Of a stretch of DNA of 64,000 nt, positions 9,576 to 50,299 are shown one piece after another. A program made the translations under genes and the position numbers. Within the stretch, counting starts at the first letter, position 1. Each line of letters opens with the position of its first letter. Source of the stretch: Craspedostauros australis. Its lineage: Eukaryota; Bacillariophyta; Bacillariophyceae; Mastogloiales; Achnanthaceae. The notes below the pieces were generated by a model. That model was not told where the DNA came from and did not search any database. It saw only the letters and a list, made by a program, of their open reading frames with translations. Location of the stretch: NCBI GenBank assembly GCA_026770025.1, contig JAMXDE010000019.1, forward strand, positions 1 through 64,000, read 5' to 3'.

Positions 9576-10371
9576 TGTCGAGATGTACATGTGAGTATAT
9601 GTCGAGATGTACGAGTATATGTGCATCGTTCACCCGCTATTCTCTCATACGCACTTGGACGGTATAACTACATTCGTGTCGATAGTATACTGTGATTCGT
9701 CAGAATTACAGGGGAAACGGAACACACGAAAAGGGGCAAGATTTCTGGAGGAAATTTGCAAATGACGATTTCTGAGAGAATTAGAAGATCGTCCGTCCAT
9801 CCATCAATGGTACCAAGAGAATCTCGAGGTACTTCCCAACTAAACCTCAGATGACGATATCATCTGACAGACCACTGCATCACCAATGGAACGTGACATC
9901 TGGAGAGCAGAAGGACGCCTACTGACGTCGACAGGATGTCATCATGTCACCACGTCGACATCTGTCTCCAAGTCAGAGCAGGAGGCGAAGATCCGATGAC
10001 CGAAGGGCATCAGCATCATGGATACAGAAGGTGAACTTCAAATGGCGAGTACTCATGGAGTAGGAGCCAGTACTGAATGAACGGAGTGTCGAATACGGAG
10101 TACGTATCGAACACGGAGTATCGTGCGCGACGAGCACACGATGTTGAGAGAGAGAGAGAATACAGAAGAGGAGCGAGAGAGCATCTCGCGTACCGACTCA
10201 TAGTCGGAGACTGAATCTACGAAACAGATTGAAGCACCAAGAGCATCGGGCAAGAGAACGGGCGTACACCGAGAGCATCGGAGTAGCCAAGTAATGAAAT
10301 AGCAAACGAACGACTATCAACCAACACCATCTTCCACGATCGTAGGTTACCGTGAGCGGAACTTGCCAACA
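9576..10371 (+). repeat. copia-0 3' LTR (extent inferred)
   Basis: It begins TGTCGAGATG straight after the polypurine tract and probably ends TTGCCAACA at 10371, giving a 796-bp LTR of the TGTC…CCAACA type also used by copia-2 and copia-4. The right border is inferred: at 10372 the sequence becomes the integrase-to-RT linker of copia-4, in the same orientation. No second LTR is in the window to prove the boundary. No gene is seen here. Confidence 0.6.
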
Positions 10372-13400: not shown

Positions 13401-14561
13401 GATGTTTTTGCTGGAAATGTCCTGGTCTTCCAGGAGCATCTTATGGATGCTGGAAATCCTGATGTCAACGAACTCCCTGACCACAAGGGACGGTCGTAGT
13501 TGTTCCACGCATGCTGTGCGAACTCGCATGACATCGTGCGATTCGTGGTGGAGCAGTGTGGCGCCAATGTGGATGCGCTGGGCGAAGCTGGGTATTGCGC
13601 GCTATACGCCACTTGCTGCTTCGATCACCTTGACATCGCTCGATACTCGCTGTGCCTTGCTGGCACTAGCCTACTCCTGCCCTCTCGTGGTGACTGTTTA
13701 CCCATCCATGGCGCATGCATGCGCAACTCGATCAAGGTTGCCTTGTACCTTGCCAAGAACCACAACTGCGGAGGGAACGTTCCAGATGAAAATGGTATGA
13801 CTGCGTTCATCCATGTATGCAAGTTGAGTAGCGCAGCTCTAGTCAAAGGACTACTGCAAGCCATGAGTGTTGATCTATCTGGTCAAGACCGATTGGGGCG
13901 TTCTGCTCTGCATTATGCATGCATGGCCACGTTGCTACAGTCAAGCATCTTGTCCTCAAGCATGGTGCTGACATCACAGCTCTAGACCACAACAAGGACA
14001 CTCCCATCGAGTTGGAAAATGGAATGGGAAGCTGGACATCATACAATTCTTTTCTAAACACGCTGTTACCATTGCTTCACGTTGAAAGTTGACTATGCCA
14101 TTCACTGTCACCCATGTGACGACGTGTCCTCCACTTCCATTCGACGAGAGCAAGCACACTTGGGTGAGGTTCGACCAAGAACGCACCACCCCAAACAATG
14201 GACCTGACAACAACGATGTGACCTTTGTCTGCGGAAGTGGTGGTGATGATGATTGCCTCCGCGCCAACTCCGCAATTCTGCCCCACGTCGTCCCCAGAAT
14301 TGGGCGACTGCTGAGCACGGTGTTGGCTCCAGAAGAAGGCCTTTTTCTCAGTCTCTCCTTCATGCACCAGACGTGAGTCATGTCAACGATGATGGTGCCG
14401 TCACCATTCCTCTGCCACTATTCAGTGCAAAGCATGTTGCCATTGTCCTCAGCTGCATCTACACTGGCAGTATTGTATTCGATCGTCACAATTCCGACCT
14501 GGACAACCTCCACAACCTCAAGCACGAATTATTCTGGCTTGCTTGCGTGCTCAGGATGTGA
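13401..14561 (+). pseudogene. decayed ankyrin-repeat/BTB protein gene
   Basis: Plus-strand frames carry ankyrin-like units (LFHACCANSHDIVRFVVEQ; GRSALHYAC followed by KHGADITALD in a neighbouring frame), then a BTB/POZ-like stretch (NNDVTFVCG, LRANSAIL, then IPLPLFSAKHVAIVLSCIY). Ankyrin plus BTB proteins usually act as adaptors for cullin-3 ubiquitin ligases, but no such role can be claimed for a remnant. The segments sit in at least three frames with no convincing splice sites between them, so the gene is broken. Its 5' part is missing where copia-4 abuts. A second copy of its tail lies inverted at 19345-19630. Confidence 0.65.
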
Positions 14562-14810
14562 AGTGAAGCACTCTCAGGCACACAGATGACAGTCTTCTAT
14601 TGATTATCTGTTGTTGGTGTATTGCTGATACACTCCTTGTTGTGAACCAGATTATGACCACATACCATAAATCCAACAAAGACACATGCTCTGTTCGTTT
14701 TTTCCCCTGTGTTGTTTCAGCCACAAACACTCCGCCTCAGTTGCTTGTGACTGTACGGTCACAGAATCTTTGACCAATACGAGCTACGCGACTCGTTTGA
14801 CCCCAAAACT
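14527..14810 (+). repeat. inverted duplicate, copy 1
   Basis: About 285 bp that recur in reverse complement at 19345-19630 with roughly 90-95 percent identity by eye, including the shared core CGAGCTACGCGACTCGTTTG. It spans the BTB-like C-terminus and the sequence after it. Confidence 0.85.
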
Positions 14811-14857
14811 CACTCTAGCAGCTCATCCTGCTCTGCAACAAGTTCGAATTCTGGAGA

Positions 14858-15543: not shown

Positions 15544-16590
15544 TCAACATAGAACGACGATTGCACAGCATTCATGACAACACCCACTAGCAACAGAAAC
15601 AGCAGACTGCACTATGATAGCCGTTTACGTAGTGAATAAATCTACAAGTCTACGAAGTTTGAAAGTACAGAAGCTTATATTCGAGTAGATATGAATCGAT
15701 TCGTGTAGGCCATGATACTCGCAGATGAGCAGAAATCTGTGTGATTCCTCTTCCCGTTCTGCGTGGTGCTGTGGAAACGCGAGGGTTTGTGTGGCGGGAT
15801 GATGACGAATGTTGGAAATCCGGGGTGGTGTGATAGTAGAAAGCTAATCGTTTGTTAGAATCTACTTCTCTGAACTGTGAGCTCTTCATTGCTCTCAATT
15901 GCAAAGTCCAATCTCCTCCTGAGATCACCATGGGTCCCTCTGTTGGTCTAGCAGGCATCCATCTTGCATTCATCGCAATTTCACCATGGACATGCATGCA
16001 CCACCGAGTACCCCATGTTCGTGCACACAAGCACGTTGTCCTCCGCTGATAGTTTCGATGCCTTAGACATCGCCGAGTCGTAGGCATCACACAGATCGGT
16101 TCAATCGATCAGATCACAGTCTCTCATGCATCGCGGGAACGCGTTGGTTGGGAGCTCATTCAGCTCCTCGACCATCTCACATCTCCGATCATTTCACATC
16201 TCCGATCGACTCCGATCGTTTCTGATTGTTTCTTCGCCGATCACTTCACCGGCTTCCTGGAAGTTCCTCATACCAGGTTCGTTCACAGGCCATCTCACAC
16301 TTCGTGACATCGGCCCTCCTCCAGTACTCTTTTTCATTGGTTGCGACATGGGGGCCGTAGTCGCTCGTATCGTGATGTTGGTCACGATTCCAACATCCCC
16401 GCCCCCTGCGACATACACGTGTGATTCGCATTCCTGCATTGGAGTCATGAACGTCAAGGCATGGTTCGCATTCGGCACGTGACGTTCTCCACCGCGAGTT
16501 ACGTGCAGCTCACATTTTTCTGTGTCACAATGATCAAACGTGGGAGTTGCGGTAATGTAGAATATCCCGACGTTCGGCTCCTTACTCCTG

Positions 16591-16631
16591 CACCGTCCGG
16601 TACTTTTGTTAGTCGTGGATAAAATAGACGG
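16591..16631 (+). repeat. left TIR of the 12.7-kb transposon
   Basis: Starts CACCGTCCGGTACTTTTGTT and matches the reverse complement of 29245-29284 with about three differences over 40 bp. Weaker similarity continues inwards for about 200 bp (GCTCTCTGA segment at 16746-16754 and 29107-29115 in inverted order). Confidence 0.9.
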
Positions 16632-16799
16632 TTTGCAATTCGACTCATTAGACTAATTTAGCACCAGCTTCGTGGGTTCACGTTTCAATTCTGTGGAGAC
16701 GCATTTGCATATTGGATATAACGGTCAAATCAAACCTATAACGTTCAGAGAGCAGGACAGGCCAGCCAACACGGAACGCTTGAGTGTCTTCCTGTCACC

Positions 16800-16895
16800 G
16801 TTCTGAATCAAACCCCCCGTTCTGAATCAGACAGCTCATTCTGGATTCAGAATCAGAACTTCTGAAGTTCTGAATCCGTTCTGACTCGATTATGT
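16800..16895. repeat. left subterminal TTCTGAATC array
   Basis: Five or more copies of CGTTCTGAATC-type units, some arranged as GATTCAGAATC palindromes. The same unit is repeated at 28968-29085. Subterminal arrays of this kind are commonly transposase-binding sites in DNA transposons; here that is inference. Confidence 0.65.
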
Positions 16896-16919
16896 TGTCT
16901 GAATGCTCTTGCGGACGAG

Positions 16920-16947
16920 GGCCGGGTGGTTTGTAAACCACCCGGCC
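16920..16947. repeat. 28-bp perfect palindrome
   Basis: Arms GGCCGGGTGGTTT and AAACCACCCGGCC with a GT spacer. It would form a strong hairpin with a 13-bp stem. It lies between the left subterminal array and the 19-bp inverted pair. Confidence 0.85.
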
Positions 16948-19344
16948 AATAGCGGTGCGGTCCAGGCAGGATTCTTTGATTTTGGTCCTTCGATTTCGAT
17001 GAGACTTGGTGCACATACACTTTAGCATACTTATATTAATAATCCGAGACTGTAGCTTCAGAGAGGCCTTATCTTTATAGTTATGAGGTGATGAAGTTGG
17101 GCAGGCTACCTCTAATGGAGCCCACGATCTGTCGTGTTGTTTTTCTCGAGTTTGGGACTATCTCATGACATTTTGGTTTGTTCACGAGTTCGAGAATCTG
17201 TTTTTCCTTGGTCGGAGGCAAAACTTGATGCCGATTTCCGCATAGACGGGCAGACGGTAAAATATTGGGTGCTCACAACATGGTCAACTCGCGGTGTCAA
17301 CGTGTGCAGCTGCCCCAGCTGCTCTTCCCCTCCTCATTCTCGTTTCACTGCGTACAGGATTCTGATGGTGAAGGCGGTACTTCCAATGGACAGGGGGTAA
17401 TCGAGTATAATAGCTTCTGAAAGAGCGAGGCGACAATGGAGAATTGGGTTGACATCCTCAGTCTCGTGCATCGCCGTGTTGTACTGTGGCGAATGTCCTT
17501 GTTCACATGTGTTCGATCTCAGTCGTCCAATTCAACCCTTGTCGAAGAAATCGTCCCAAGTCTTTGAAGGAAATAACTTATGAAGTATTGAAGTACATGT
17601 AGTCTTCTGGGTGGCAGTGAGTAAGCTGGAGAAGAAGCAATGGTGGAACCCCTTTAGTCACCATAAATTCAAAGCGGGAGAGGCCATTTTAAATATTGGC
17701 TCGCTTAACCCTCATTAATGTAATCATGTTGGATGGCAACGATCTACGCAATTTCGTCTACTGAGAAATGTGAACGTTTGAAATTAAAATTTGAAAATAT
17801 CCGTTGGTACTCGTATTTTATCATTGACATTCGTCAAACGTCATCATCAGTATTCCTTGTCCAATCACTTCGTCTCATTATCATGACGTATGTATGCGGG
17901 TACACGGACAGACAGTATCTGGTTCTCGCAAAGCATTCGAACTCAACAAATTCACTCGCATCGTTCGGTGAGAGGCGTTGGGTGGACCAACAGATTCGTC
18001 CCACCGACACCGTCAACAATAGAAACTGAACAACAACGCAATTGCATCCAGCACAGCAAGTCAACCAGGGCCACAGGTCAACATGATCATCAACAACGAC
18101 TCCATTGCGGCCGCCAAAGATATGGTCAGTGTGTGCTTAGCAGAATGACTCTGCGTAGTTCAGTATTGACAGCATCGTCGATGGCCATGAGACACCACCA
18201 TCTCATGAACACACCGGCGGAGACACCTACCAAGCTACTCCACCAACGCCTACCGCAGCATCGTCAACGGATGCAGCAACCATCGTCAACACTTTGTACC
18301 AACACACAAGGAATACAAGTATGGTTGAAGGGCAATGGTGGATCTGGAGCTGCATCTCCTTGCGCTCCCACTGCAGGCCAAATTCTCATTCTACATGATG
18401 TCGCTGGGCAAAGGGCAGTGAAAAGCAGTTGGCAATGCACAACGAGCTGCAAATGCTGTGAATCAGGACAACAGCAGCCTCAACAACACTGACATCACAG
18501 CGGCAAGGACAATGCTCAGTGAGTTGGTGCATTCAGAGCCTTGTGGATGGCTGAGCATTGAGCCTGTGGAATGAACATCACAGTAGTCTTCAGAAGTTGT
18601 ATATTCGGCTGATGGTCAATAGCAGAGCATCTGGCTGGAAGCAACTGATGGGCAGAGAGCACAGCATACAGTACAGATCTCATCAGTGTATGTCGCAACA
18701 GATGGAGAGCACCGCATCCTGTCAAAAGCATGAAAGGCAACATCCGGCAAACACCAACACACATACTATTCACTGGCACCACACAGAATGCAGAGCGCAG
18801 ACTGCCTCCTGAAACAACAAACTGATGAGAAGACTGCATTCAGCAAGATCCGGGAATATTGTTATTGATCAACAAGTAGTAGGCAGTTTCCAGAAGAAGC
18901 AAAAGGGCTTCCAACCACAGCCAATGAATTCATACATGACTCAATATCGAGAAGAGTATCTGGCTTCAACCAGGTACTAGTGGGTTAGTAGTGAGCTCCA
19001 CCACATGACATTTGGCAACCAGTAGTGAAGCAATGAAGAACATTCAGAACGAGGAGCATCCAACCACAACCAAATCCACAGAGAAGATCTAACAGGAGGC
19101 AACCAGCAGCAGAAAAGGATCAAGCATCAAATATACTGCAAAGTAATTGGCAACAATCAAGAAACTACAAATCCCCAACACCAGAGTACCCAACAAAGAC
19201 CATAGTACATGCAGCAAAGTATCTCAAAACGAGCAACAGATCACTCTGCATCATTTGGCAGAGAGCAGAGCCCACAGGTCACAGCTGCAGAGCCCGCAGG
19301 GTACATAACAGAGAACACCCGACTGAGTTCTGTTGGCTGCAACA

Positions 19345-19630
19345 GAGCGAGTTTTAGGGTCAAACGAGTCGCGTAGCTCGTATTGGTCAAAGATTCTGTG
19401 ACCGTACAGTCACAAGCAACCGAGGCGGAATGTTTGTGGCTGAAACAACACAGGGGAAAAACAAACAAACAGAGCATGTGTCTTTGTTGGATTCATGGCA
19501 TGCGGTCACAATCTGGTTCACAACAAGGAGTGTATCAGCAATACACCAACAACAGATAAGCAATAGAAGACTGTCATCTGTGTGCCTGCGAGTGCTTCAT
19601 TTCGCGTCCTGAGCACGCAAGCAAGCCAGA
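19345..19630 (-). repeat. inverted duplicate, copy 2
   Basis: Reverse complement of 14527-14810, including the coding tail of the BTB-like gene. Copy 1 lies outside the 12.7-kb transposon and copy 2 inside it. Confidence 0.85.
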
Positions 19631-19735
19631 ATCATTCGCAACCAACGAATCGGCAGGGTATTTGGCAACAATCACTTGTTCCGGTTTGATTTGTCATCAC
19701 CTACATCAATGCCACTCATTGATCATTGTGCTCTA

Positions 19736-21552
19736 ATTGATGTTGCTCCTCTGGCATCCCATGGAATGCTGTCTGATGCGGATGCACGCCTGCACACACT
19801 ACAGATTCTGCGTGGCTCAAATGTCAAACAGCATGAGCATCGTACGATCTACAATTCCATCCACAAAATTCATTCCAAACTGTCGCCGCTCGCCGCTCCC
19901 AAACGCACGAACTAAACAACACAAACGAACGCAAATGAATGGGCAGACAAGTGATCACTCCGCACAACAAACAAAATCCACAATTCAGCAGCGCAAATCA
20001 ACCAACAGACAAACGACCAAATCCACGAATGGCAGAACACACAGAATGGACAAACTGCTGCACCAATAGATGCCAACCAAACATATGATACCGCTCTTCG
20101 CATCCAAAGATCTTTTGCAGCAATGGTCAACTACTGTGCTCATTGGCCAGTCCCCCACAGCTGTCAATGCCGTCAATGCCATCAATGCCATCAACAACCA
20201 ACCAAATCCTCCTGCATGTCCAGCGAGAAATGGTGGAATGCATGGTACCATCAATGCGTCGAAGCCATCATGTCATACCAAAGGATGCCCACTGTGGCTA
20301 AATCACAAATATCATCTGTGCCTGCATTGTCCTCGAGAGTCCGTACCATTCCTTCCACGCCACTGCCACTGTCGCACACATGAAAGGATTATCTGAGACC
20401 ATGATCGTGGGATGTGTGGAGTGTGCAGGGTACCTCCTCGAGGAGCTCTGCAATGGCCATGCCAACAAGCAGTTCATGAAGAATGTCGCCAAAGACCCAG
20501 GCATCCTTGTCTGCGTCATCAGGTTGATTTGCGCCAACCTGGATGCAGTTCTTGTCTTCTCATCCATCCAATCGTGGAGGTCATGCGCTTCCAGTACATG
20601 CGCTGGCTTGGAGGTAAGTGTTGACGCACAACCGCAGTCGCAGCAACCCATCGCCATCACTGTAGCAATTGCCCATCATGCATTTGTGTGCTGCACTTCA
20701 AACACTTGCACACCAACACAATCACACCCATTCTCTCCTTCTCCTTTTCTCTTCATCCATACTATTCATCCACTCCACATCATCCTGGTGGGACCAAATG
20801 CAATGCAATACACAATTGCAGGGCTTCCAGACAACCTCCAGTTCCTCGTTGCCACAGTCATGCAGCACACAACACACCACACTCTTCGCGCAGCACACAG
20901 TACACAGGCCTACTCATAAGAACTACTTCGCCTCAATCAACACCAACTTCTGTCCATATGCTGGCATTGACCCAACTGTTGCTACAATCATGCGCAAGCC
21001 AGGCGTTGATACCACCATGAACCTCATCGATTTCGCCCACTTTGCAGGAGCATCCTTTCAGAACATGGAAGAGCCACCAGATGCAGTGTTCCACATGCTG
21101 AGAGCAGAATGAAGTGAGCCGCTCCCAAGCGCAAAGAGAATCAGCAGAAGAAGATCGCCATCGCTGCCTTCTCCTTCCCATCCTGCAAGATCAACGTCGA
21201 TACTGCCACCTCCTTCAACACCTTCAATGTGGCCAAGGCTATCCTGCAACAGCTCAAGAGCAAGGGATGCAATGTCAGTGGTGGCAACAGCATTGACAAA
21301 GCCACCAAGGAGGATATGCTGAAGGCCATCCTGAAGGATATCGTCAACAACATCATCAACACTCTGGAAGCAATGCTCTCCTTTCCAGAGCTCAATTTTC
21401 CCACCACAGGGATCCAGGCAAGTACTATTCATGATGATGTTTCGAATACAAGCAAGATCCCAACTGCCTCCTCTTTGCCAATTCCGTCAACACTGCTAGC
21501 CTACATCACAGACTCATGGCCTACACGTACCCATCACCCAATTCTCTGTTGA
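19736..21552 (+). pseudogene. remnants of a multi-part gene of unknown family
   Basis: Protein-like plus-strand stretches at 20395-20612 (CAGYLLEELCNGHANKQF, CVIRLICANLDAVLVF), followed by a plausible splice donor (GGAGGTAAGTG), then 20925-21112 (YFASINTNFCPYAGIDP, ending MLRAE and a stop) and 21140-21420 (FNTFNVAKAILQQLKSKG, KEDMLKAILKDIVNN). They lie in different frames and could be exons or decayed pieces. The lysine- and leucine-rich helices at the end are unlike the rest. I recognise no family. Its place inside a transposon suggests captured or trapped host sequence. Confidence 0.35.
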
Positions 21553-21620
21553 AATTCCCTGTTGTCCCAACAGTAACATGCTCCTGTATCGCTCAGGAGT
21601 GATCGATTCTACACTTGCCA

Positions 21621-22417
21621 TGTTGAAAGTGAGGGGGATTTTGTTATTTCTGTCCTCTGTTCTGGTTCAGTCCTGTACGATCAGGAATTTCTGATGTCAC
21701 ACATTTCGACAAGGGTCGTCAGGTTTTGCAGATAGTTAGGATTCGGGTGTAGACTTCGCGAATCGGTGGAGAATGCCTCGTGAATCTGCCGGCTTCGGGA
21801 TAGCCGTGTGATGCAGTTCAAGAGAGGTGTACTGATTGAAGAGTTAAAACTGTAACGATGAGTAGTAGAGTGCTTTGTAGCTAATCCTTGTCTGTTTATT
21901 ATGAGTTAGCTTATTGGTGTTAGTAGGGTGAAGAAACGATGCCACACAACTTGGCGAGACCCTGCACTGATGCATTTGATTCAGTGCAACATAGTAGACA
22001 ATCAATACAGTACTTGCTCTCCGCACATGTAGTTACACTGCAGTGTAGGTCATGACGATCGGTGGTGACGGTCATAAAGCAGTGGCTGTGGCTGAAGCTG
22101 ACCCTCGGATTCCATTGCTTGAGTTGAAGCAAGTTGGATACGCATGTTGAGACCACGGTGGTAGTGTGGTGGTCATCAGCATGAAGGAATCGAGGTATGT
22201 TGTAGTAAGGAGGATCTGAAGAGCATATAGTTCCCAGGTGGGGTGTGAGTCAGGTCGGTCAGGTTTGAGTCATGATGGATTCGTGAATGGAGGAGAGGAA
22301 GGAGGAGAAAAGATTTGGTGGTCGATCAAGTCGGAAGATTTCGTGCCAAAACAAGAATTTCTCCCATCGGGTTGATACCGTGTTCGGTAATAGTCTGTCC
22401 CTCATTGAATCTCAACT
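21621..22417. repeat. LTR-like segment distantly related to the copia-1 LTR (solo LTR candidate)
   Basis: Short landmarks occur in the same order as in the copia-1 LTR: GTGAAGAAACGAT, a TGCACTGA…TCAGTGCA hairpin, AGGAGGATCT, GAGCATATAGTTC, TTTGAGTCATGA and a TTTCG-GCCAAAA segment, ending CTCAACT. Overall identity is low, so it would be an old relative. I could not find a matching 5-bp duplication, so the ends are approximate. Confidence 0.5.
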
Positions 22418-24770
22418 CAGATGAATAACTGCCCTTTGCTGTGCACGGTAATGTGGCACCTGAGTTGCCCTCTCCTGTTTGCACATGTTCAAACCTCTCC
22501 TATTGAGTTGCAAGCACCGAGTCCCAAAGTTCAATATTTGGATGACTATCTGGGTATGAATACATTGTGAATGACCAAGTTGTTGACTTGATCATTTCTC
22601 AGATCAACGTCCCAGAACTTGGCACTTGTGAACTATTGTACAGCTTGTCAGCAATGACCTCCATCACCTCTTCCATGACTTGGTCCGCTGTTGTTTATTT
22701 GGCGTTGTTGGCTTTCATGTTTTGGGTTGGTGTGTTGCTGCCATGGGACTGTGCACGGAGACCAGAACCAGACCACCATCATTGCAGTTGGCAAAGCTGA
22801 CACCAATGGGAAAGGATGAGGCTGGTGCTAGTGCGACAGGCATCAATGAGATGAATCTGAAGGCAGTAGATGGTTGCTGCAAGGAAAACAAAGGTGGAGC
22901 TGAGGGGGGTAGGCCTCAGTATGGGGGCCTTTAATCACCATTGCCATGGGAGGGAGAAGCTTGTTGGCCATGGTAGAGAACATGTGTGAGTTGGGCACAT
23001 GAGTTGTCCTGGTCAAGGTGGAGAAAGACAGCCATGGATACAGTTCTGGCTGCCTCTGATATCATCATGGTTTGGATCATCGTCTTGCTGGCTCCTGAAT
23101 TTGGTTTTTGGTGTTGACGGGTAGGCTGTCTCTATGATTGATGGGTGGATTCATGGGTATGGTGGGTATCGTCCTGAAGGGATTGCTGTTGGAGTTGCGA
23201 TGGAGCTGCAATGAATTTGTCTCTGCTGAGAGAGAAGGGAATGGCGTTTTCCATCCCCTGGATGCCCGGGTGACCACTGGTAACCCCCAAGTGTAAGTGC
23301 TGCTAGGTGGATGCATGGAGAGGCCACTCAGATATTGGTGAGAGAGCAGAATTATTGGGGACATCACTGTTGCCTTCTGTTGGTTGTCTCTCAGGCCTGC
23401 TCACACTTGGGCGTTCGGAGTGCCCTCCTGAGCGTGTTTGGGCGTTTGGGTGAATGTGTTGATGTTTGTGCTTGCGAGTGTGTGATGTTGGATGTGATGA
23501 TGTGTACGGTCTGCGTTGTTTGTTGGCATGAATGATCACAACATGACTTAGTCGGAGGGGTCGACAATCGCTTGGACATGCACAAACTACACAGGAACAA
23601 GAATACACGAAAAAATCATACTCGTTCCCATTCAGCAGTGCAGGCGAATGTGTGTGCTACGTTAGTACGACAAGATAACAGTTGGCAAACAATCCAGGTC
23701 TTTTATACACAGAAAATCAAAATCATGCGGAGGAGAATAGTAGGGCGCGAGTCGAACATGCAGCACACGCGATGTTGTGACGAATGTAGAAGAGTATGAT
23801 ACAAGATCACTCAACAAAAACGTGCGGTGCAAAAAGGAAGAGAAAGCGAGAATCGAACCAGAGCAAAAGAATCCCGCCATTGCGTTTTCACAGTGCCCAC
23901 AATGCGATTTTGTATTTGAGCATACAAACTTCAAATACTGTCGATTGCATTCGCACTCCCACCACCAATGTCGCAAACGCACACTTCGAAATGGATTGGC
24001 AAACGCATGCTTTCGCAACCAAAACACACGCGAAAATCAGCTCTGATCTGAACCAGGTGGCATGAAGACGTCAATTCGAACGTCTGTCCAACCACACGCA
24101 ACTTTGGCGATGTCACACAGCACGGAACATGTGACATCACACGGTACTTAACGAAAACAAGAACGACGTCATCACAGGTTCGACTCCGAATAACGTCCAT
24201 AACGTTCAAATGAGCACGAATGATTGTTCTCTACCAAGCTTCCCACCAAGCAAAACACAAAGAAAGCGAAAATCAGATAGAAATGGGTTCCACGTGTCGT
24301 GACATGATCGCCCACAAAGCCAACGTCTGTCCGCTTGCACCGTATTTTGCCTCTAAAACAGTAGATTGCCACCCTCATAACTTTATAACTAAGGCCTGGA
24401 CTCACCATCTAACGCCTGAATCATGTTACCATAACAATAAAGTATATAAATATAGGTATTGATTTTTATGAGGGGCCGTACAAGCTTGGGCCAAAATGCA
24501 TTCTGCCTGGACCGCACCGCTTTTCGCTCACACGGGTCTTACAAGATTGTCACCATTTTAAACATGACACATAACGTATATTAACGCCTTTCAAACACAA
24601 CAAGTTGGTAACACAACAACCACTTCTTTGCTATTTGTTGCCGAGCGCTCGCACGCACATCATCGATAGCTGCTCCATCGTCGCTGTCGCTGTCGCTGGT
24701 ACTGTTGCTGTTGCTGCGCACTTGCAAGTCTTCACACATCATACCACGAGTACACCCTCTTCGATTTACA

Positions 24771-25725
24771 ATGGCTGACGTGATCACAGCTGATCAAACG
24801 CTCCACATGGGGCTCATGGTGGTGAGCTCTTGCTACGATGAATTCGATGGGAAGCGTATGATTGCCAAGACCAGCTGCTTCCGGTCGCATTTTGGTGTCG
24901 GGCCTGCAGCTGTCGCGGCTCTCTACTTTGACCTCCAATCACTCAACAAGGAACACGCGTTCGCGAGAATCTCTTTGCGCAGGCTGCTCATCACTCTGTT
25001 CTGGATGAAGACGTACAGCACGGAGACCTTGATGGCCAGCAAATTCCACCTCTCCGAGAAGACGATTCGAAAGCACTGCCTCGCATACGTGCAATCGATT
25101 GCTGCGCTGCGACAGCACAAGGTAAGATAGTCCAGAAGCATCTACATATGCGAGAATGTCATCAATCTCATCAAGTCACTGTGCACTCACCATCTTCCAG
25201 ATTCGTTGGACTCAAACCGTTGCTGAAAATGATCAAACTTTTGTTGTGACTGTGGATGGTATACACTGCGAGATCAACGAGCCTCGAGATGATCCAAGCT
25301 CCAAATGGTTTTCGCACAAATCACATGGTCCTGGTCTTGCGTATGAGTTGGCAATCTCCATCCGTGAGAGCAGGTTGGTCTGGATCAATGGCCCATTTCC
25401 TGCCTCTGTGAACGACCGCACAATCTACAAAATGGAGAATGGTTTGCGATCCATTATCCCTGATGGCTGCCTTGGCATTGGTGATGAAGGATACACAAAC
25501 GAGGACAAACTGAGCACAGCGAACTCTCTCGATAGCAGAGAATTGGCAGAATTCAAGCAAAGAGCACGCGCGCGTCATGAGATCTTCAATGGAAGACTGA
25601 AGGTGTTCAACGTGCTGAAAAATAAATTCCGCCATCACCGCGATCGCCATTTGGCAGTCTTCGAGACATGCTGTGTTCTGGTACAATATGACATGGAGAA
25701 TGGAAACCCTCTGTTTGATGTGTAG
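24771..25725 (+). CDS. PIF/Harbinger-like DDE transposase, two exons
   Basis: Exon 1 is 24771-25121 (117 codons from ATG, phase 0) and exon 2 is 25201-25725. The 79-bp intron starts GTAAG and ends CCAG. The 291-residue product has a helix-turn-helix-like segment (residues about 83-113, STETLMASKFHLSEKTIRKH) and an IS5/Harbinger-type catalytic core: D136 (VTVDG), D189 (SVNDRTIY) and E244 in the ARHEIFNGRLK motif that typifies this family. GDEGYTNEDK precedes the last block. It is somewhat short for HARBI1-like proteins (usually 350-400), mainly at the N-terminus. The reading frame has no break. It probably cuts and pastes the 12.7-kb element; whether it recognises CTG targets is inference. The start could lie upstream if a further exon exists. 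Confidence 0.82.
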
Positions 25726-26065
25726 CAACTATAATATTCTCTATAGCACTCATTAGAATCATCAAGCAACATCAGTGATCTATATTTGCGCAGTTGTGTG
25801 GAACGTTGGAGGAATTTGCGTCTTTGTGGGGAATCGTGGTGTGCATGCGATTTGGTGCCATGCACGAACAAATATCCACGACTCGCGCCAAACAACGGCT
25901 CGACACAACACCACAACCAAGATAATGCGACAAAATGCAACAAAATGCAACGCAATGCCACACAGATGCACATTCGTTTGTTCTGTTGACATCAATCCTA
26001 ATTATACTGTTGCCAGAGATTAAACTACTGTTCTCCATCTCATGCCTTCGCTCATGAGCGATCAC

Positions 26066-26509
26066 TTATGCATCATCATCGTCATCATCGCTGTCCTCGT
26101 TCATGCCTGTGTTTCGGTCAGCAAGGGGGATGCTCCCAAGGGACTCCTCGAGAGCTGCCAACTCCAGACTAGTCAAACCAGGCGGGGTACTCTTGCGGCC
26201 ACGAGGATGATTGGTTGCGTCGTCAAGCTCTGCAATCGTGCGCTTCTTGTGGTTTGTTGCATCGTTCATGATGGCATCGTTGCTTCCGACTGTGGTGGCG
26301 GCGAGAACTGCAACAGGCGGGGTGATGTTTTTGTGACCAACTGGCCCAGTTGGCACGTTTGGAAGGAGGAGAAGAGGGGTGCTGGGCACGTCTGGCATGC
26401 GAGGAACGTTGGCGGTTGGTGTGGTGGTTGCTCCGCCAGAAGCGCGGTTGTTGGTGGAAACGTTGTTCGCCACTTTGTCCGAGAAATTGCGGCGTCCGGA
26501 GCTGTTCAC
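26066..26509 (-). CDS. hypothetical transposon-borne protein with acidic tail
   Basis: The frame is open from 26596 down to 26066. No ATG lies in its upstream part: the first in-frame ATG is at 26398 (MPDVPSTPLLLLPN), which would give 110 residues, whereas the open stretch before it is Gly/Arg/Ser-rich (GRGSGRKSIPRPF). A missing 5' exon or a non-ATG start are both possible. The product has a Pro/Thr-rich N-part, a KKRTIAELDD segment, a predicted helix (LTSLELAALEESLGS) and an Asp-run C-terminus. I recognise no family. It faces the transposase tail to tail (341-bp gap). PIF/Harbinger elements usually carry a second, Myb-like DNA-binding gene; nothing Myb-like is visible here. Confidence 0.4.
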   Translation of the reverse strand: MNSSGRRNFSDKVANNVSTNNRASGGATTTPTANVPRMPDVPSTPLLLLPNVPTGPVGHKNITPPVAVLAATTVGSNDAIMNDATNHKKRTIAELDDATNHPRGRKSTPPGLTSLELAALEESLGSIPLADRNTGMNEDSDDDDDDA

Positions 26510-26717
26510 AAATGGGCGAGGAATGCTCTTGCGCCCGCTTCCTCTGCCAGCATGTGTGGAGCCTCCGCCACCCTCCGTCTTCGTGGGTGGAGCTTCTCAG
26601 AAGAGCACAACAGTAGAGTAGAGTAGTGTAGTAGAGGAGTAGAGTGTAGTAGAATAGAATCGTTTTGTTAGTGTTAAATGCACTCAACTTGATCACACAC
26701 CATTGCTTCACTTGTAT

Positions 26718-27815
26718 TCACTCACGTTTCACGTTGCCTGCGCCAAGATCGTCATCATCGTCGTCATCCTCAGTGGTTCGCACAGCACTGGTGTCTGCAG
26801 TTGTATTGGCCACAGCCACATGCCAGAAGACCTTGATGAAGGAGTCTGTGGCTGCCCCTGGATTGGCGTCCTTGCCTGACAGCTCAATACGTCGGCTGCA
26901 GCGCTTCAGGGAGTGGTTGGTAGGGTCCTTCCGCACATTGAAGAACTCCTTGCAGAACTCCATCCCATCTGGGGGCACAAGAGTGGTCTCCATGAGCGGA
27001 CGGGATCCTTCAGTCTTGTCCAACCGATTGGAGAGTTTGAAGTACTCCTCCTTGGCCTTGTCACAGAAGATGGCCTGAGTTCTTGTGGTTGCAATGGCCG
27101 TCTTGTCCCGAACGTCAACGAGCGGAAACACCGGCTCAGTGATGATGATTGATTTGTTGTCATCGCCCAGGATGGCGGAGTAATGGCTGATGTCGCGAGC
27201 GTCGGTGACAAGCTTCGAGATGACCACCTTGTCGACGACGAGATTACCGTCGGCCTTGGCAGATGCGACGTAGATGGCGATTCCGCCAGGGATCATTGTT
27301 GCGCCATCTCCGTTGAGGGTGAAGCTGGTGCGGAAGGCGATGTTCTTGGACATGGTTGCTGGTGCTGGTGCTGGTGCTGAGGTGATGAGGCAGTCACTGG
27401 CTCGTGGGTGGGTGTTGGATTGTTGGTTGTGATGCTTTCGCTTTTTGTGTGGTGATTCGATGGCGTGATTCTGGAACATGGAGCACAACTCATCCATGTC
27501 ATTGCCTTGTGATGCACTCACGGTTTTCTCCAAGTAGTTCTTTCTATTGTACGCTCTCTTCCGCTCAGGCGACCGCGCCAGGCCAAAGAGGAAGACATTC
27601 TGATCACAAAATTTACTGAATTTGCCGTGCTTGGATGGGTTTTGAATGAAGCTCAGAATTTGCGTGTCGGTGGCGCTGGTTGGGGCCTTCGTACCTTTTC
27701 GCTTGCGCGCTTGTTTCTCCTGAGAGTCCTCCATGGTTGGTTGGTTTTGAACTAGTATATTATGATGCTGATCAGCATTTATTGTGGATACAGTTGAGCC
27801 TAGGTTCTGATTCAT
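26718..27815 (-). CDS. hypothetical transposon-borne protein, 365 residues
   Basis: ATG at 27815; a second ATG 81 bp further on (MEDSQEKQARKRKG) is an equally good start. Residues about 28-110 are basic and look nucleic-acid-facing (KQARKRKG, SPERKRAYNRKNYLEK, SPHKKRKHH). Residues about 158-350 form a separate globular part starting MSKNIAFRTSFTLNG, rich in beta-like hydrophobic alternation (VVDKVVISKLV, SIIITEPVFPLVDV), and it ends in a run of eight Asp. No catalytic motif is recognisable. The unbroken frame and its place between the transposase and the right TIR suggest a job in transposition or DNA binding, but that is inference. It is divergent from the 28153-28689 gene, sharing the intergenic region. 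Confidence 0.55.
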   Translation of the reverse strand: MNQNLGSTVSTINADQHHNILVQNQPTMEDSQEKQARKRKGTKAPTSATDTQILSFIQNPSKHGKFSKFCDQNVFLFGLARSPERKRAYNRKNYLEKTVSASQGNDMDELCSMFQNHAIESPHKKRKHHNQQSNTHPRASDCLITSAPAPAPATMSKNIAFRTSFTLNGDGATMIPGGIAIYVASAKADGNLVVDKVVISKLVTDARDISHYSAILGDDNKSIIITEPVFPLVDVRDKTAIATTRTQAIFCDKAKEEYFKLSNRLDKTEGSRPLMETTLVPPDGMEFCKEFFNVRKDPTNHSLKRCSRRIELSGKDANPGAATDSFIKVFWHVAVANTTADTSAVRTTEDDDDDDDLGAGNVKRE

Positions 27816-28152
27816 TGCGTGTTGGGTATACTTGTGTTGCCGTCACAAGGATCACTATCTGTGAGACTGAGCTGGTTGGCACGATTGTCATGGCCCTGTT
27901 TTGGTGGGAAGATCAAGCAGTCTTGTGTGCATCGCCGTTTGTGACAGTTTACAAACAAGCAACGGATAGTTGCTGGTGGGGCTACCCATCTCGTTGTAGT
28001 TGCTCATGCTGTTCTCTTCGTATTGATTGTTGGGTGTTACCATTGCAGGTATGAGTGGTAGAGTCCGCTTGGTCTCAATGCAACTCTTGCCCAACATCAC
28101 AACAAGTCCCACACAAACTACAACGGAACAACATCTCGGCAATTTGTTGATC
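27816..28152. promoter_or_regulatory. divergent intergenic region between two transposon genes
   Basis: 337 bp between two outward-facing ATGs. It probably holds both promoters. A pyrimidine-rich ATTGCAG at about 28044-28050 could be a splice acceptor for an upstream leader of the plus-strand gene. No convincing TATA box is identified. Confidence 0.35.
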
Positions 28153-28689
28153 ATGCCTCGCAGCAAGTTGTGGCCAGCGGTCAAGGAGACTCTTCGTGAT
28201 GATCTCCTGCATGGAAGAATCACGGACGACATGAAACCTCGTGCTGTCTATGAACTGCGAGTCGAATACAAGCAAACCAACTACGTCAACTTCCGTACCA
28301 ATCTTCGAACTCTTCGCAAGGCATGCGATGAACAAAAGCGACGCGCACAAGCTGATGCCCAGGCTTTCGAACGATTCAAGGCCCTTCCACCAATTGTGCA
28401 CACTCGCCCTCGATGGAAGGGATCAAATGCAGAGGCACAGCTGGCAACTGACTTCGATGAGGGTCTGCACCTTGCCAAGAAGCCCAACGATCTCTACGAG
28501 TCGAATGTCGTGTACCACCAGTTCACGCTGAAGCAACTTCGCGATCACATCTATCAACTCAAGCGAAGCAAGATGGCATCGACGTACTGGTTGCAGCGAC
28601 GCAAAAATGAGGAGGAGAATAGGAAAGCAATGCGCGAACAACTCCTCAGCGCAGCACGCGCAGTCAACCAAGAACAGAATACTGAGTAG
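28153..28689 (+). CDS. small basic protein with a duplicated helical domain
   Basis: 178 residues from the ATG at 28153; in-frame ATGs at 28051 and 28078 would extend it by 34 or 25 residues, but that extension has no similarity between the two repeats. The protein contains two related units. Unit 1, residues about 4-57, has LWPAVKETLRDDLLHGRI, then KPRAVYELRVEY and FRTNLRTLRK. Unit 2, about 98-140, has LATDFDEGLHLAKKP, YESNVVYHQF and LRDHIYQLKRS. The shared pattern is an acidic D/DEG segment, a YE-x-Y centre and an FR/LR basic helix. I recall similar duplicated proteins from diatom genomes, where their function is unknown. A DNA-binding role is plausible given charge and context. The frame has no break and lies 280 bp inside the right subterminal array. 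Confidence 0.6.
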   Translation: MPRSKLWPAVKETLRDDLLHGRITDDMKPRAVYELRVEYKQTNYVNFRTNLRTLRKACDEQKRRAQADAQAFERFKALPPIVHTRPRWKGSNAEAQLATDFDEGLHLAKKPNDLYESNVVYHQFTLKQLRDHIYQLKRSKMASTYWLQRRKNEEENRKAMREQLLSAARAVNQEQNTE

Positions 28690-28967
28690 ATTACCATACT
28701 AGTTGTCATTGTCATACTGCCTACAATATCTTTTCTGGCGCCAAGATGTTTCTACTTGTGGTCATGTTGTTGATGTCACACCCAGTATGTTGGCTGTTGC
28801 TCTCTCTGTGTTTGTGTTTGTGTACAGTAGAGCATTCGCATTTCTGTGTGGGCGAACAACATGAGCGGAAATGACGCGCCCGGACAAGCCAACAGACAGA
28901 AGGAAACTTGTGTGTGTCTGCGACGAAGCCCCCACAGGGATCACTCGGAGGGACACTCTCGATTCAG

Positions 28968-29085
28968 AATCAGAATGGAAAAATTCTGAAGTTCTGAAGT
29001 TCTGACTCGATTCTGAATCCGTTCTGAAAGTCTGAATCCGTTCTGAAATTCTGAATCCGTTCTGAATCGGAGCCTGATTCTGAAT
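28968..29085. repeat. right subterminal TTCTGAATC array
   Basis: At least six units (TTCTGAATCCG and variants) packed in about 120 bp, matching the array at 16800-16895. Confidence 0.65.
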
Positions 29086-29244
29086 CAAGCTGAAACACGC
29101 CAGCCGTGCTCTCTGAGACGGAAACAGACTGACACGCGTAACGCTAATATAACGTCTACACAAATTCAAATTATTGCTTCAGCACGAAGTTTGGTTACGC
29201 GGGACTCGATTGGAAACGTCATTGGGTTCCATGAGCGGTCTGTC

Positions 29245-29284
29245 CGTCGTATTTATCCATGACTAACAAAAGTACCGGACGGTG
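29245..29284 (-). repeat. right TIR of the 12.7-kb transposon
   Basis: Inverted partner of 16591-16631, followed by the CTG duplication and the remainder of the copia-2 LTR. Confidence 0.9.
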
Positions 29285-29799
29285 CTGGGAGGTGCGGCAA
29301 TATGGTGTTTCAGAACACCCGATTCCTGACACCCTTCCATTGCCGCTCCAACCATATCCATAATGACGTTTTTCTTGCGTCCGGACGCATTCTCTACCTT
29401 CCACCTCACTCACTCGGCAAACCGATAGCACTAGTTGTAGAGTTTTTGCTGTCTTTCTGGCCAGAATGACTCGTGTTTGCATGATCCCGGGAGTATCGGC
29501 AATGCTCCCAACACTACAATTTCTTAAACCAACGAGTGGCCAGTGGCGTGACTGGTCACAACTCACAAAACTGAGCAACAGAGGTTTGCGTTGTTGTCGA
29601 ACACCCATCATCATCTTATGGCATCACACCTGTCCCCTCTCCACCTCTATTTCCTTGATGCTATTACTTTTTCTAATTCTACTAATAGGCTTCGTTTCCT
29701 TCTCCTCATAGGCGTTTCTGCTGTGGGTCTGTGTGTTGCCCATTCTGTCATGAGGGTGTTGTAGGCAAAGATACGCTTCGATCTTGGTAAGGCTTGCCT

Positions 29800-34899: not shown

Positions 34900-35313
34900 G
34901 CAAGCTCGCCGAAAATACCACTTGTACTACTTAAGTCCCATGTTCCTCCACGATGTCCCGTGTTGCAGAAAAAAAAACGATTTCGCTCCGAAACCCGAAA
35001 GTGGGTTGTTTTTTTTTCTGACTCCTTCGAGTAACGCATTTATTTGGCGATTTCAAAAAAAAACCTCGCGATGCAGCACGGCGTCATTGGTCATGTCTCA
35101 GGGGTTCCTTTCCGTGCGCCTGACTTGCTTTTCTGACGTCATGGGATCTGAGGTAATGAGCTTTTACTTTTTGATTTCGATGTCATCCACCACGCTCCTG
35201 ACAACAACACCAAAATCCTGGCAACGGTGTAACACAACAAGGAGGGTGGACCACGAATCATGATTATTATTTGTTCAATTACCACAACTGTGGCGATTAT
35301 TATCGATGTAAGA
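34900..35313. other. element A interior, no gene seen
   Basis: Contains several A or T homopolymer runs (34970-34977, 35010-35017, 35057-35065) and no supportable coding sequence. It ends with the TAAGA target duplication of copia-3. Confidence 0.5.
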
Positions 35314-35483
35314 TGTCAAACAGTGCAAGTAACTACGAAAGACGTATTGGCCCGTTGTTTCGTGCCCTGGTCGGAGCTCTTGTTGTTTATTTGTGAGTGC
35401 TGTCCGAAGACAGCCCCCGACCAGTATTTGACTAATAGGATTAGTAGAGGAGTAAGAAGTAAGGAATTCGGTGAGAATTGTCA
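35314..35483 (-). repeat. copia-3 3' LTR
   Basis: 170 bp; sense ends TGACAATTCTCACC … CACTGTTTGACA (TG…CA type). A polypurine tract AAGGGGCG precedes it in sense (35484-35491). Confidence 0.95.
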
Positions 35484-41426: not shown

Positions 41427-44400
41427 TCAGTCCAATGCTGATCTGGGCTGAATGATGCTCCCCTTGTGCCGATCGTAGATCTCCTTCTTAGTGTTCTTCG
41501 TGAATCCGTCGGAGATGTTATCTTCTGACTTCACGAATCGAGCTCTCGCCTCCTTGTTAGCAATCAGCTCTCTGATGAAGTGGCTGCGTATATCGATGTG
41601 TCTCGTTCTCGCTGATGTCGATGGATTGGTGGCGATGAAGATCGCCCCCACGTTGTCGACCATCACATCTGCAGGGACACTCGGCAGAAAGTCAGGATTT
41701 GCTACAACCGGAAACGTGTTAAGCAAAATAATGTCATGATATTATGAATTGGTCATACATCATTGCCGCGTATTGCGTCAATTACTCCCTTGAGAGAACC
41801 TTGAGTCGTAGCAGATAAACTCCCGACATTCCCGACAAAGCTCCCGACATTCCCGACAAAGCACCCGACATTCCCGACAAGACACCCGACATTCCCGACA
41901 AAGCACCCGACATTCCCGACAATCCCGACAATCCTGACATTCCTCACACAACAGTCGACATACTCGACCAAAGTTGACAATCTGTTTGGATGACGTTGGC
42001 GGAGCGTGAGTGCTGTTGCGATCCATGAAGTTTCAACCCGAACACACACAAAATGCCACCCAAATGGGATGAGCGTGTTGTTTGTTGTTGCCGTGCGGAT
42101 TCCCGGTTTGGACAAACAACGGGCAGCTTTTTCGCTTGACGCCACAACAACGACACACCATGTCGCCTCGCATCACATCACAGTCCATGTATGCAATGCA
42201 GGGCACTCATATAGTGATTGTAATATTTAAACATAAGCACTTATGTCATCCTATTATGGTGTGTAGAGTAGATTCGTAAATTTTTAAGCTCCTGGGACTT
42301 GTAAACACAAAGTTATTGTTTCGTTGTAGCCTATGACTAGAAACGTTTGGCATGCGGACGCAAAGGGGCAGCTGCAGTTCAAAATCTCCAGTCGTGCTTC
42401 AACTTGTGCCAGTCAAGTACACATCCACAACATGATCGCGAGTGTGTTGGTTTCGTCCCGTGTGTGTCTGTTTCCTTTGTTACCACCACGCGTTTTCGTT
42501 CTTCGATTGTTTCGTCTGTCCGTTCCCCGTGAGCTCTGCCCATCCAGGTGCGGATGTCTGGTGCCGAGACTCCGGACATTCTCGACAATCGCCACAACAC
42601 GCCCGACATTCCCGACAACGCACCCGACATTCCCGACAACACACCCGACATTCCCGACAAAACTCCCGACATTCCCGACAAAGCGCCCGGCATTCCCGAC
42701 ATTCCCGACAATGACACATGACAGTATGAGTTTATCAATTTCGTTGTGATGACCTAAATAATATCAAAAGACACCGAAGCTATTTAATTGGTTTAAGGAA
42801 AGAGGTTTTTTGATCGTGCCAGACATTTTGCCGCGTGTCCCAGGTTTCTCCATCTCCAATCCGATGTCCTCCATCAGTTGAGTCAAAAAGCGGATCTCCT
42901 TTCCAGCTTCTGACAGTGCAACATACTCGGCCTCGGTCGAGCTCAATGTCACGCTGCGTTGTGCCTTCGATCTCCAGATGATAGGCACTCCTTGCAGTAG
43001 GACCAGATGTCCTCCAACGCTGATGCGGTTGTCCTTGTCTCCAGCGAACTCGCTGTCGGTGTACACCACGATCTTCCATGCGTTGTTGTTCAACGGCTTG
43101 GGCTCCATCCTCAATCCGTACTCTCTCGTGTCCGATACGAACTTCATCACTCTCAGCATCTCCTTGTATGCTGTGGTCGTTGGTCCATCCAACACCTTTG
43201 TGAGTTCTCGGACTGCATTCGCGATGTCTGGTCTCGAATGCTTCACCAGATATAGTAGCATACCCACTCCACTGCGGTATCTGCTGTGTCAATCCTTGCC
43301 GACTTTGGGTGCTTCACTGTTCCTCTGGATCCCTTGACCTGGTGTGCCTGGGGTTCCATATCGTTGAAGCTTCGTCACGTCGCTCTTGAATGTATCCGTG
43401 ATGTTCTTGATGATGTGTGGCTGGTTCACCCATCAGTTGGTTTCACTCTTGTTGAATTCGATCCGGCAACTCAAGTAGTCTTCGAGTCCATCCTCGACCT
43501 TGATTCCGAATCGTTCGCGCTTGATGTCCTTCACCAGTCGCTTCAGTTCGAGGGTGCTTCCGATGCACAGGCAATCATCGACGTACGTCTCGATGAGGAC
43601 GAGGTTCCCTTCCCGATTCCGAATTAGCAGGCACGGGTCCACCTTGCTCTGCCGGAAGCCAAGCTTGATCAGGATGTCCACAAGCTTCTTATTCCACTGC
43701 CTTGCGCTCTGAACCAACCCGTAGATGGTCTTCTTCAGTAGCAGGCATTCGTCCGGCTCATGCTCCATTCCCTTGGGGCATTGCATGTAGATCTCTTCCT
43801 CGAGGTCTCCGTGCAGGAAGGCGGTTTCGAAGTCGATGATGATGCTGTCTGTCTTCAACAACATCTTCATGGTCAGCATCGCTCGGTACGTTGCATCGTG
43901 GATCACTGGCGCATGATGAGCGGAAAAATCCACTCCAGCAATCTGTGAGTATCCACAGGCAACCAACCTGGCGCGAAAGACTCCATTCCTCTTCTCCTTG
44001 AAGACCCATTTCGTCTTCACACATCGCCGATCCCTCGGCATCTTGTTCTTCTTGATCTTCTGCCAGACTCCTCGTCTCGTCATATCGTAGAACTCCTTGT
44101 TGATGGCCTCCCGCCACTTCCTTCGCTTCGCTGGATCTGCATGATCCCAGCATTCCTCGAAGGTGGTTGGGTCCAGCATCATTGCCGTGTATGCATGCTC
44201 GGACGTCTCGTTCCAATCCCCTCTCTCGACTCGTTGGCTTGCTGCGATGAATTCATCCAGCCTCATTCTCCCTTCCGTGGTGTCGATCATTAGACTCGCC
44301 ACGTCTCGATTGAACATGGATATGTTCGAATGGAAGTCTCGTTCGCCCGTAGTTGCAGGGATCATCTCAGCTGTCTCAGCTGGTTCATCGTCTCCACTGC

Positions 44401-48286: not shown

Positions 48287-48304
48287 TCGTAACGTTTCGA
48301 AACG

Positions 48305-50299
48305 TGTTGGAAATCCGGGGTGGTGTGATAGTCGAAAGCTAATCGTTTGTTAGAATCTACTTCTCTGAACTGTGAGCTCTTCATTGCTCTCAATTGCAAA
48401 GTCCAATCTCCTCCTGAGATCACCATGGGTCCCTCTGTTGGTCTAGCAGGCATCCATCTTGCATTCATCGCAAATTCACCATGGACATGCATGCACCACC
48501 GAGTACCCCATGTTCGTGCACACAAGCACGTTGTCCTCCGCTGATAGTTTCGATGCCTTAGACATCACCGAGTCGTAGGCATCACACAGATCGGTTCATT
48601 CAATCAGATCATGGTCTCCCATGCGTCGCGGGAACACCTTGGTTGGGAGCTCATTCAGCTCCTCGACCATCTCACATCTCCGATCATTTCTCATCTCCGA
48701 TCATCTCCGGTCAACTCCGATTGTTTCTGATTGTTTCTTCGCCGATCACTTCACCGGCTTCCTGGAAGTTCCTCATACCAGGTTCGTTCACAGGCCATCT
48801 CACACTTCGTGACATCGGCCCTCCTCCAGTACTCTTTTTCATTGGTTGCGACATGGGGGCCGTAGTCGCTCGTATCGTGATGTTGGTCACGATTCCAACA
48901 TCCCCGCCCCCTGCGACATACATGTGTGATTCGCATTCCTGCATTGGAGTCATGAACGTCAAGGCATGGTTCGCATTCGGCATGTGTCGTTCTCCACCGC
49001 GAGTTACGTGCAGCTCACATTTTTCTGTGTCACAATGATCAAACGTGGTAGTTGCGGTAATGTAGAATATACCGACGTTCGGTTCCTTACTCCTGGGAGG
49101 TGCGGCAATATGGTGTTTCAGAACACCCGATTCCTGGGACACGCGGCAAAATGTCTGGCACGATCAAAAAATCTCTTGCCTTAAACCAAATAAATAGCTT
49201 CGGCGTCTTTTGATATGTTTTAGGTCATCACAACGAAATTGATAAACTCATACTGTCATGTGTCATTGTCGGGAATGTCGGGCGCTTTGTCGGGAATGTC
49301 GGGAGTTTTGTCGGGAATGTCGGGTGTGTTGTCGGGAATGTCGGGTGCGTTGTCGGGAATGTCGGGCGTGTTGTGGCGATTGTCGAGAATGTCGGGAGTG
49401 TCGGCACCAGACATCTGCGCCTGGATGGGCAGAGTTCACGGGGGACGGACAGACGAAACAATCGAAGAACGAAAACGCGTGGTGGTAACAAAGGAAACAG
49501 ACACACACGGGACGAAACCGACACACTCGCGATCATGTTGTGGATGTGTACTTGACTGGCACAAGTTGAAGCACGACTGGAGATTTTGAACTGCAGCTGC
49601 CCCTTTGCGTCCGCATGCCAAACGTTTCTAGTCATAGGCTACAACGAAACAATAACTTTGTGTTTACAAGTCCCAGGAGCTTAAAAATTTACGAATCTAC
49701 TCTACACACCATAATAGGATGACATAAGTGCTTATATTTAAATATTACAATCACTACATGAGTACCCTGCATTGCATACATGGACTGTGATGTGATGCGA
49801 GGCGACATGGTGTGTCGTTGTTGTGGCGTCAAGCGAAAAAGCTGCCCGTTGTTTGTCCAAACCGCGAATCCGCACGGCAACAACAAACAACGCGCTCATC
49901 CGATTTGGGTGGCATTTTGTGTGTGTTCGGGTTGAAACTTCATGGATCGCAACAGCACTCACGCTCCGCCAACGTCATCCAAACAGATTGTCAACTTTGG
50001 TCGAGTATGTCGACTGTTGTGTGAGGAATGTCGGGATTGTCGGGATTGTCGGGAATGTCGGGCGCTTTGTCGGGAATGTCGGGTGTCTTGTCGGGAATGT
50101 CGGGTGCTTTGTCGGGAATGTCGGGAGCTTTGTCGGGAATGTCGGGAGTTTATCTGCTACGACTCAAGGTTCTCTCAAGGGAGTAATTGACGCAATACGC
50201 AGCAATGATGTATGACCAATTCATAATATCATGACACTATTTTACTTAACACGTTTCCGGTTGTAGCAAATCCCGACTTTCTGCCGAGTGTCCCTGACA
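48305..50299 (-). repeat. copia-2 5' LTR, split by the second GGACAC element
   Basis: LTR sequence occupies 48305-49136 and 50294-50299, closely matching 15810-16590 plus 29288-29331. The insertion lies six bases from the LTR end. Next to the LTR on the internal side is the perfect palindrome CGTTTCGAAACG (48293-48304), where the primer-binding site should be; I could not assign a tRNA. Confidence 0.88.
49137..50293 (+). mobile_element. non-autonomous GGACAC element, copy 2
   Basis: 1157 bp, reverse complement of copy 1 with high identity by eye. Flanked by CTG (49134-49136, 50294-50296). The sister LTR has a single CTG with continuous LTR sequence at 29326-29328, an empty site. Arrays of the TCGGGAATG unit are at about 49267-49400 and 50035-50150. 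Confidence 0.9.

Follow-up and report, generated by a model that had tools for sequence, protein, structure and literature searches.

The window analysed here is a stretch of 64,000 nucleotides in which the interval from 16588 to 29287 begins and ends in inverted sequences with CTG on either side, and an earlier note read it as a large transposon of the PIF/Harbinger type whose empty site is preserved elsewhere in the same stretch. The locus raises the questions of what kind of element this is, whether it moves as a unit of that size, and what the CTG signifies in a superfamily that includes a group duplicating TWA. The combined evidence very probably identifies a cut-and-paste PIF/Harbinger (PHIS) transposon of approximately 5.1 kb, which inserts at CWG, was invaded by a 7.6-kb nested element, and carries beside its transposase a likely partner gene (P178) and a clade-specific gene (M374).

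Borders, target duplication and empty site

The borders that had been proposed for the element (16591-29284), together with the 3-bp CTG duplication, proved exact to the base, and are defined by the following features.

16588..16590, unstranded: target-site duplication CTG, left copy (from the sequence and the empty site)
16591..16623, plus strand: left terminal inverted repeat (TIR), 33 bp, 1 mismatch to the right one
29252..29284, minus strand: right terminal inverted repeat (from TIR comparison)
29285..29287, unstranded: target-site duplication CTG, right copy (from the sequence)
49093..49095, unstranded: paralogous empty site, where the second LTR-like repeat has CTG only once (from the repeat alignment)

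Across 16588-29287 the letters read CCTTACTCCTG and then the left end CACCGTCCGG, with the right end CCGGACGGTG followed by CTGGGAGGTGCGG, and the paralogous empty site reads CCTTACTCCTGGGAGGTGCGG from position 49085 on. The two host repeats, which share 96.3% identity over 791 bp and lie in the same orientation, had been taken for the two LTRs of one copia element; they are better described as paralogous LTR-like repeats, given that their outer 5-mers (ACGAA and TCTGC, read with the LTR end set by the TG..CA rule) differ. The terminal inverted repeat was likewise longer than the 10 bp first reported. A 10-mer end taken alone is without significance (3 matches against 3.64 expected, with 1 mismatch allowed), and the element is certain because its ends match over the full 33 bp with a single mismatch and because its first 100 bases find 23 matches across the 74.8-Mb genome, 21 of them outside the window element.

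Several other features are present in the same window: copia-type coding regions (RVT_2) at 35309-41198, 43436-48349 and 10356-12524; a direct repeat of 170 bp (35314 and 41029) that may be the LTR pair of another nested element; and, within 51094-62851, three long minus-strand open reading frames of 1100, 1824 and 925 aa that display no Pfam match at E <= 1e-5.

Natural size of the element and the nested insertion

Between its two ends the interval is composite, and its parts are as follows.

16591..16932, plus strand: PIF-type element, left part (matches the 342-bp ends of other copies)
16933..16946, unstranded: 14-nt filler GTAAACCACCCGGC, an inverted copy of the PIF flank that replaces the first 13 bp of the nested element
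16947..24538, plus strand: nested non-autonomous transposon with TIR GACCCGTGTGAG, without its left tip and separate from the PIF element
21733..22418, unstranded: LTR-like solo repeat inside the nested transposon, borders approximate, 5-bp duplication CAGAT
24539..29284, plus strand: PIF-type element, right part, with all three genes inside (from comparison with other copies)

Four other full-length copies exist in the genome (C17:1063148, C45, C51 and C11), and in each of them the stretch corresponding to 16933-24538 is absent and the two parts of the element are directly joined. Two of the four are bare copies of 5098 and 5106 bp, while the C51 copy has received a solo LTR-like insertion and the C11 copy a 9.1-kb insertion bearing two copies of that same repeat; short copies of the family, of approximately 0.8-2.6 kb, are also present. 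The natural length of the element is thus about 5.1 kb, and the copy in the window, which had been described as large, appears to extend over 12.7 kb because an unrelated 7.6-kb non-autonomous transposon was later inserted into it.

The contrary reading, that a single transposon of 12.7 kb moves as a unit with 16933-24538 as its cargo, would account for two intact outer ends with matching CTG, but is most improbable, and was rejected on the grounds that the other full-length copies are free of the nested stretch. That stretch, moreover, is found in some 20 or more copies elsewhere, and all 10 of those checked possess their own ends and 4-bp NTAN duplications; the TTAC that follows its right end is itself an NTAN site, uninterrupted in other PIF copies; and the two copies on contig C76 that share the left flank of the window are duplicates of the window locus.

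The nested family comprises at least 20 copies, with no transposase recognised in it, and the element carries a captured fragment of the gene for magnesium chelatase subunit H (ChlH), as a photosynthetic host would lead one to expect. Of 33 genomic matches to the left end of the nested element, 30 lack the 14-nt filler that stands there in the window. The filler forms a palindromic junction of the kind that an abortive cut, followed by hairpin-type or snap-back repair, would leave, in the manner of a P-nucleotide-like scar.

Further rearrangements were noted around this insertion. Contig C76 holds two near-identical duplicates of the window from position 1 to approximately 24.5 kb (9 of 16 sampled tiles match; L034 and L035). 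One of them (C76:43732, L035 8648) has the same broken left tip of the nested element, and its nested right end is joined to ATAT, another NTAN site, within a repeat whose other occurrences are mostly close to the ends of contigs; the other duplicate runs up to the end of the contig. These duplicates possibly reflect either a segmental duplication with transposons at its borders or an overlap between the ends of contigs. An LTR-like repeat of approximately 686 bp occurs solo in the window and in C51, paired around the 9.1-kb insertion of C11, and also at L042 and L043. In addition, a 295-bp inverted repeat with 94% identity has one copy outside the nested element (14525-14816) and one inside it (19344-19638), and is absent from the C76 duplicate.

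The transposase and its two companion genes

All three genes of the element reside in its right part.

24771..25121, plus strand: transposase exon 1 (gene model)
25201..25725, plus strand: transposase exon 2, with DDE_Tnp_4 and residues D136, D212 and E244 of the 291-aa protein
26718..27815, minus strand: third gene M374, an orphan open reading frame of 365 aa (374 aa from stop to stop), stop codon included
28153..28689, plus strand: P178 open reading frame, 178 aa, stop codon included, with relatives that adjoin most PIF-type transposases of the genome

The transposase is encoded by two exons and is 291 residues long (292 codons including the stop), just as it had been read from the sequence initially, and the assignment of the element to the PIF/Harbinger type is upheld by a Pfam match to DDE_Tnp_4 above cut-off (E 6.7e-14). 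D136, D212 and E244, which we take to be the DDE catalytic triad, are invariant in 17 sequences (that of the window and 16 of the 120 homologues listed). The best homologues among those 120 matches are 45-47% identical and are mostly environmental sequences; only two are assigned to a named organism, one to Bacillariaceae sp. and the other to Nitzschia inconspicua, both of them diatoms. No occurrence of the transposase in viral contigs was confirmed, and a comparison with solved structures found none matching it, the transposase alignment giving matches at chance level only.

The three reading frames are free of stops in the five full-length copies, with the exception of P178 in C51, which is truncated by the LTR-like insertion. 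The ratio dN/dS is 0.15-0.37 for the transposase (10 pairs), 0.13-0.29 for M374 (10 pairs), and 0.09-0.37 for P178 in 9 pairs, with a value of 0.85 in one further pair that contains 4 changes; across the three genes 29 of 30 pairwise comparisons lie within 0.09-0.37, although the pairs are not independent tests because they share ancestry.

The distribution of the two companion genes was established from the best 45 of at least 150 transposase matches (best 45 of 150, counted together with 48 of 60 matches for P178 and 18 of 30 for M374). Among those best 45 loci, a P178-like reading frame lies within 12 kb of the transposase at 37, distant relatives included, and by this proximity P178 is the likely counterpart of the ORF1 partner protein of PIF/Harbinger elements; the element at C11:1710882, in which the P178-like frame and the left end are 20 kb away, falls outside the distance limits of the count. 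M374 lies between the transposase and P178 on the opposite strand, and a frame resembling it, again on the opposite strand, accompanies all 18 of the closest transposase loci but none of the 27 that follow (same best 45 of at least 150). Some of its matches to relatives are weak (E up to 0.2) and gain weight only through the constant position of the frame, which suggests that M374 may belong to the transposition machinery or to the control of transposition.

Neither P178 nor M374 has a homologue at E <= 0.001 among 5.8 billion proteins, and neither matches a Pfam model above cut-off (hence no Myb/SANT match) or an NCBIfam model; their predicted structures are poor, with a mean pLDDT of 57 and 32, respectively.

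Target choice across families

CAG on one strand is CTG on the other, and the two triplets denote one double-stranded site, here written CWG. When the flanks of family termini were read without any assumption as to their sequence, 35 of 39 proved to be CWG, in a window where CWG makes up 3.7% of triplets and TWA 0.8%; the termini are partly paired, and a binomial value for this excess is not a strict probability. TWA was found at 0 of 39. The remaining four comprise a TTG, a CCT and the two ends of a single old copy, TCG and CGG. The 39 were obtained from 40 scanned rows by removing a spurious match (L039:288093) and both ends on C76, which duplicate the insertion studied here, and by adding the two ends in the window; an additional end at C20:1108559, missed by the scan and standing outside the 39, is flanked by CAG. 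Identical CWG was present on both sides in 12 of 13 two-ended copies, the other being without a match, and C49 was excluded from this paired count, its right tip not being intact. The tabulation of flanking triplets that the earlier note had proposed as a check on its CTG duplication was in this way carried out, and apart from the four exceptions it failed to refute the claim.

Two copies (L025 at C53:264304 and L026 at C17:674134) are inserted, in opposite orientation, at one and the same CAG within a host repeat that displays 94% identity over 229 bp across the site; the pair represents either independent insertions or inversion in place.

The same site preference extends to related families, among transposase matches that number at least 150 in the genome, a figure that covers the 150 scored out of 358 candidates. 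The second family, which corresponds to the next 13 transposase loci (46-54% identity), has ends reading CAAGGCACGGG. Direct reading of two independent insertions gave a right flank of CAG in one and CTG in the other, while the right ends read at C68 and C1 stopped short of the border; the pattern of CWG plus end occurs at 116 sites and, when reversed, at 1; CWG is present at 94 of 99 sites listed and missing from 5; and both ends carry matching CWG at 12 of 13 loci, some of which may be segmental duplicates of one another (C68/C34/C1). The third family (43% identity), with ends GGACAC, yields 174 sites against 5 reversed, and 7 of 8 of its transposase loci have both ends with 0 mismatches to the CWG-including pattern. 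Since the patterns employed for these two families themselves contained CWG, they favour CWG sites, and the unbiased counts are the 35 of 39 and 12 of 13 of the first family only. A family of 47-48% identity is flanked by CTG at one copy and by TTG at a second, with left ends not found; for a family of 36-37% identity, no border was found within 351 bp.

Two MITEs of the third family lie in the window itself.

49137..50293, plus strand: MITE of the third (43%) CWG family, CTG at 49134-49136 and 50294-50296
41675..42840, minus strand: second MITE of the third (43%) family, CAG at 41672-41674 and 42841-42843

The first of these lies inside the LTR-like repeat in which the main element has its empty site, 41 bp away from that site, and has an empty site of its own (CTG at 29326-29328) in the first LTR-like repeat.

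Relationship to known PHIS groups

The traits of the PHIS (PIF/Harbinger) superfamily are present in this element: DDE_Tnp_4, terminal inverted repeats and a 3-bp duplication. It also resembles the TWA-duplicating PIF/Harbinger group in having a second reading frame beside the transposase and in its MITEs, but differs from that group in duplicating CWG, with the defining TWA seen at none of the 39 termini, and in the third gene of its close clade. The place of the Myb/SANT second reading frame of that group and of NuwaI is taken by P178 (at 37 of the best 45 of at least 150 loci), with no Myb/SANT match and a poor structural model. Other groups were considered and set aside: ISL2EU is characterised by an AT duplication and THAP/YqaJ domains, whereas the duplication here is CWG and no such domain was found in the frames scanned; and the duplications of Pangu (ANT) and NuwaII (C-TNA-G), as well as the lack of any duplication in Spy, likewise disagree with CWG.

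CWG duplications in PIF-like elements, which the earlier note had mentioned, are indeed published: they define the group NuwaI, reported from 16 animal genomes of 836 surveyed, with TIRs that usually begin with GGG and an average length of approximately 4.5 kb (Han et al. 2015, PMC4482050). The element shares with NuwaI a CWG duplication confirmed by paralogous empty sites, a DDE transposase, a short TIR, a length of some 4-5 kb and more than one gene; it differs in its likely diatom host (NuwaI being described from animal genomes), its extra third gene, its lack of a detected Myb/SANT domain, and TIRs that start with CACC/GACC, or with CAAGG in the second family, where the usual GGG of NuwaI is not absolute (PMC4482050). 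Among stramenopiles, the Harbinger elements of the brown alga Ectocarpus have a comparable two-gene core, their two genes being arranged tail to tail, but are described as duplicating ANT or TNA, with no mention of CWG in the available text (PMC12477816). Harbinger-like elements have also been noted in the diatoms Thalassiosira and Cyclotella, which places the superfamily in diatoms, in reports whose available text does not give duplication or gene content (PMC2806351, PMC7466962). No report of a CWG Harbinger element outside animals was found in the open literature searched.

Two alternative readings bear on what is distinctive here. The element might be a true member of NuwaI, inherited from or exchanged with an animal lineage, as its CWG duplication (the defining trait of that group), its length of 5.1 kb against an average of 4.5 kb (PMC4482050), and the GGAC with which the third family begins, close to GGG, would suggest; this is nevertheless unlikely, in view of the divergent TIRs of the first two families, the Myb/SANT domain that was not found, the restriction of NuwaI to animals in the 2015 survey (PMC4482050), and the environmental and diatom origin of close relatives among the matches listed. 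A second reading, also rather unlikely, gives M374 no part in transposition and makes it a passenger or a regulatory gene, or else regards it as a non-coding frame open by chance; this is in keeping with the lack of homologues found for M374, its poor structural model and the weak similarity between families; against it stand the dN/dS range for M374 across all 10 pairs, the 374-376 codons that are open in five copies, and a place and strand that are constant at 18 of 18 loci.

A proposed mechanism and its significance

In PIF/Harbinger elements, as described in the available text of PMC10288884, the transposase and a partner protein that binds the element ends excise the element and join it to a staggered cut. 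By analogy, the DDE_Tnp_4 transposase would here perform the cutting and joining, P178 would be the partner that binds the ends, in the manner of ORF1, and M374 would be a third, clade-specific component. A cut staggered by 3 nucleotides that brackets the palindrome C-W-G, centred on W, would give rise to the CWG duplication; the 3-bp duplication observed at CWG fits such a stagger on a symmetric site.

The element is ordinary as a member of its superfamily, and CWG duplications in PIF-like elements are already known from NuwaI. What is new is its host, likely a diatom, its three open genes, for which dN/dS is mostly far below 1, and a third gene that is confined, among the best 45 of at least 150 loci, to the closest clade. 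The duplication is what defines a PHIS group, and CWG has hitherto been thought an animal trait. A tentative extension, which is possible, is that diatoms host a CWG PHIS lineage of their own, its transposases diverging to about 43% identity, together with one clade that has acquired M374 as a third protein, essential for transposition, and that this lineage arose apart from the NuwaI of animals. Were that true, it would represent a three-component Harbinger machine of separate origin from NuwaI. Conservation of a third gene within a single clade would itself extend a superfamily that has been described as needing two proteins.

The presence in one genome of several CWG families of graded relatedness, along with MITEs, intact copies and empty sites, offers a route to the transposase residues that distinguish CWG from TWA. 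CWG is also a symmetric context for non-CG methylation, and the choice of CWG for insertion may consequently be readable against methylation maps.
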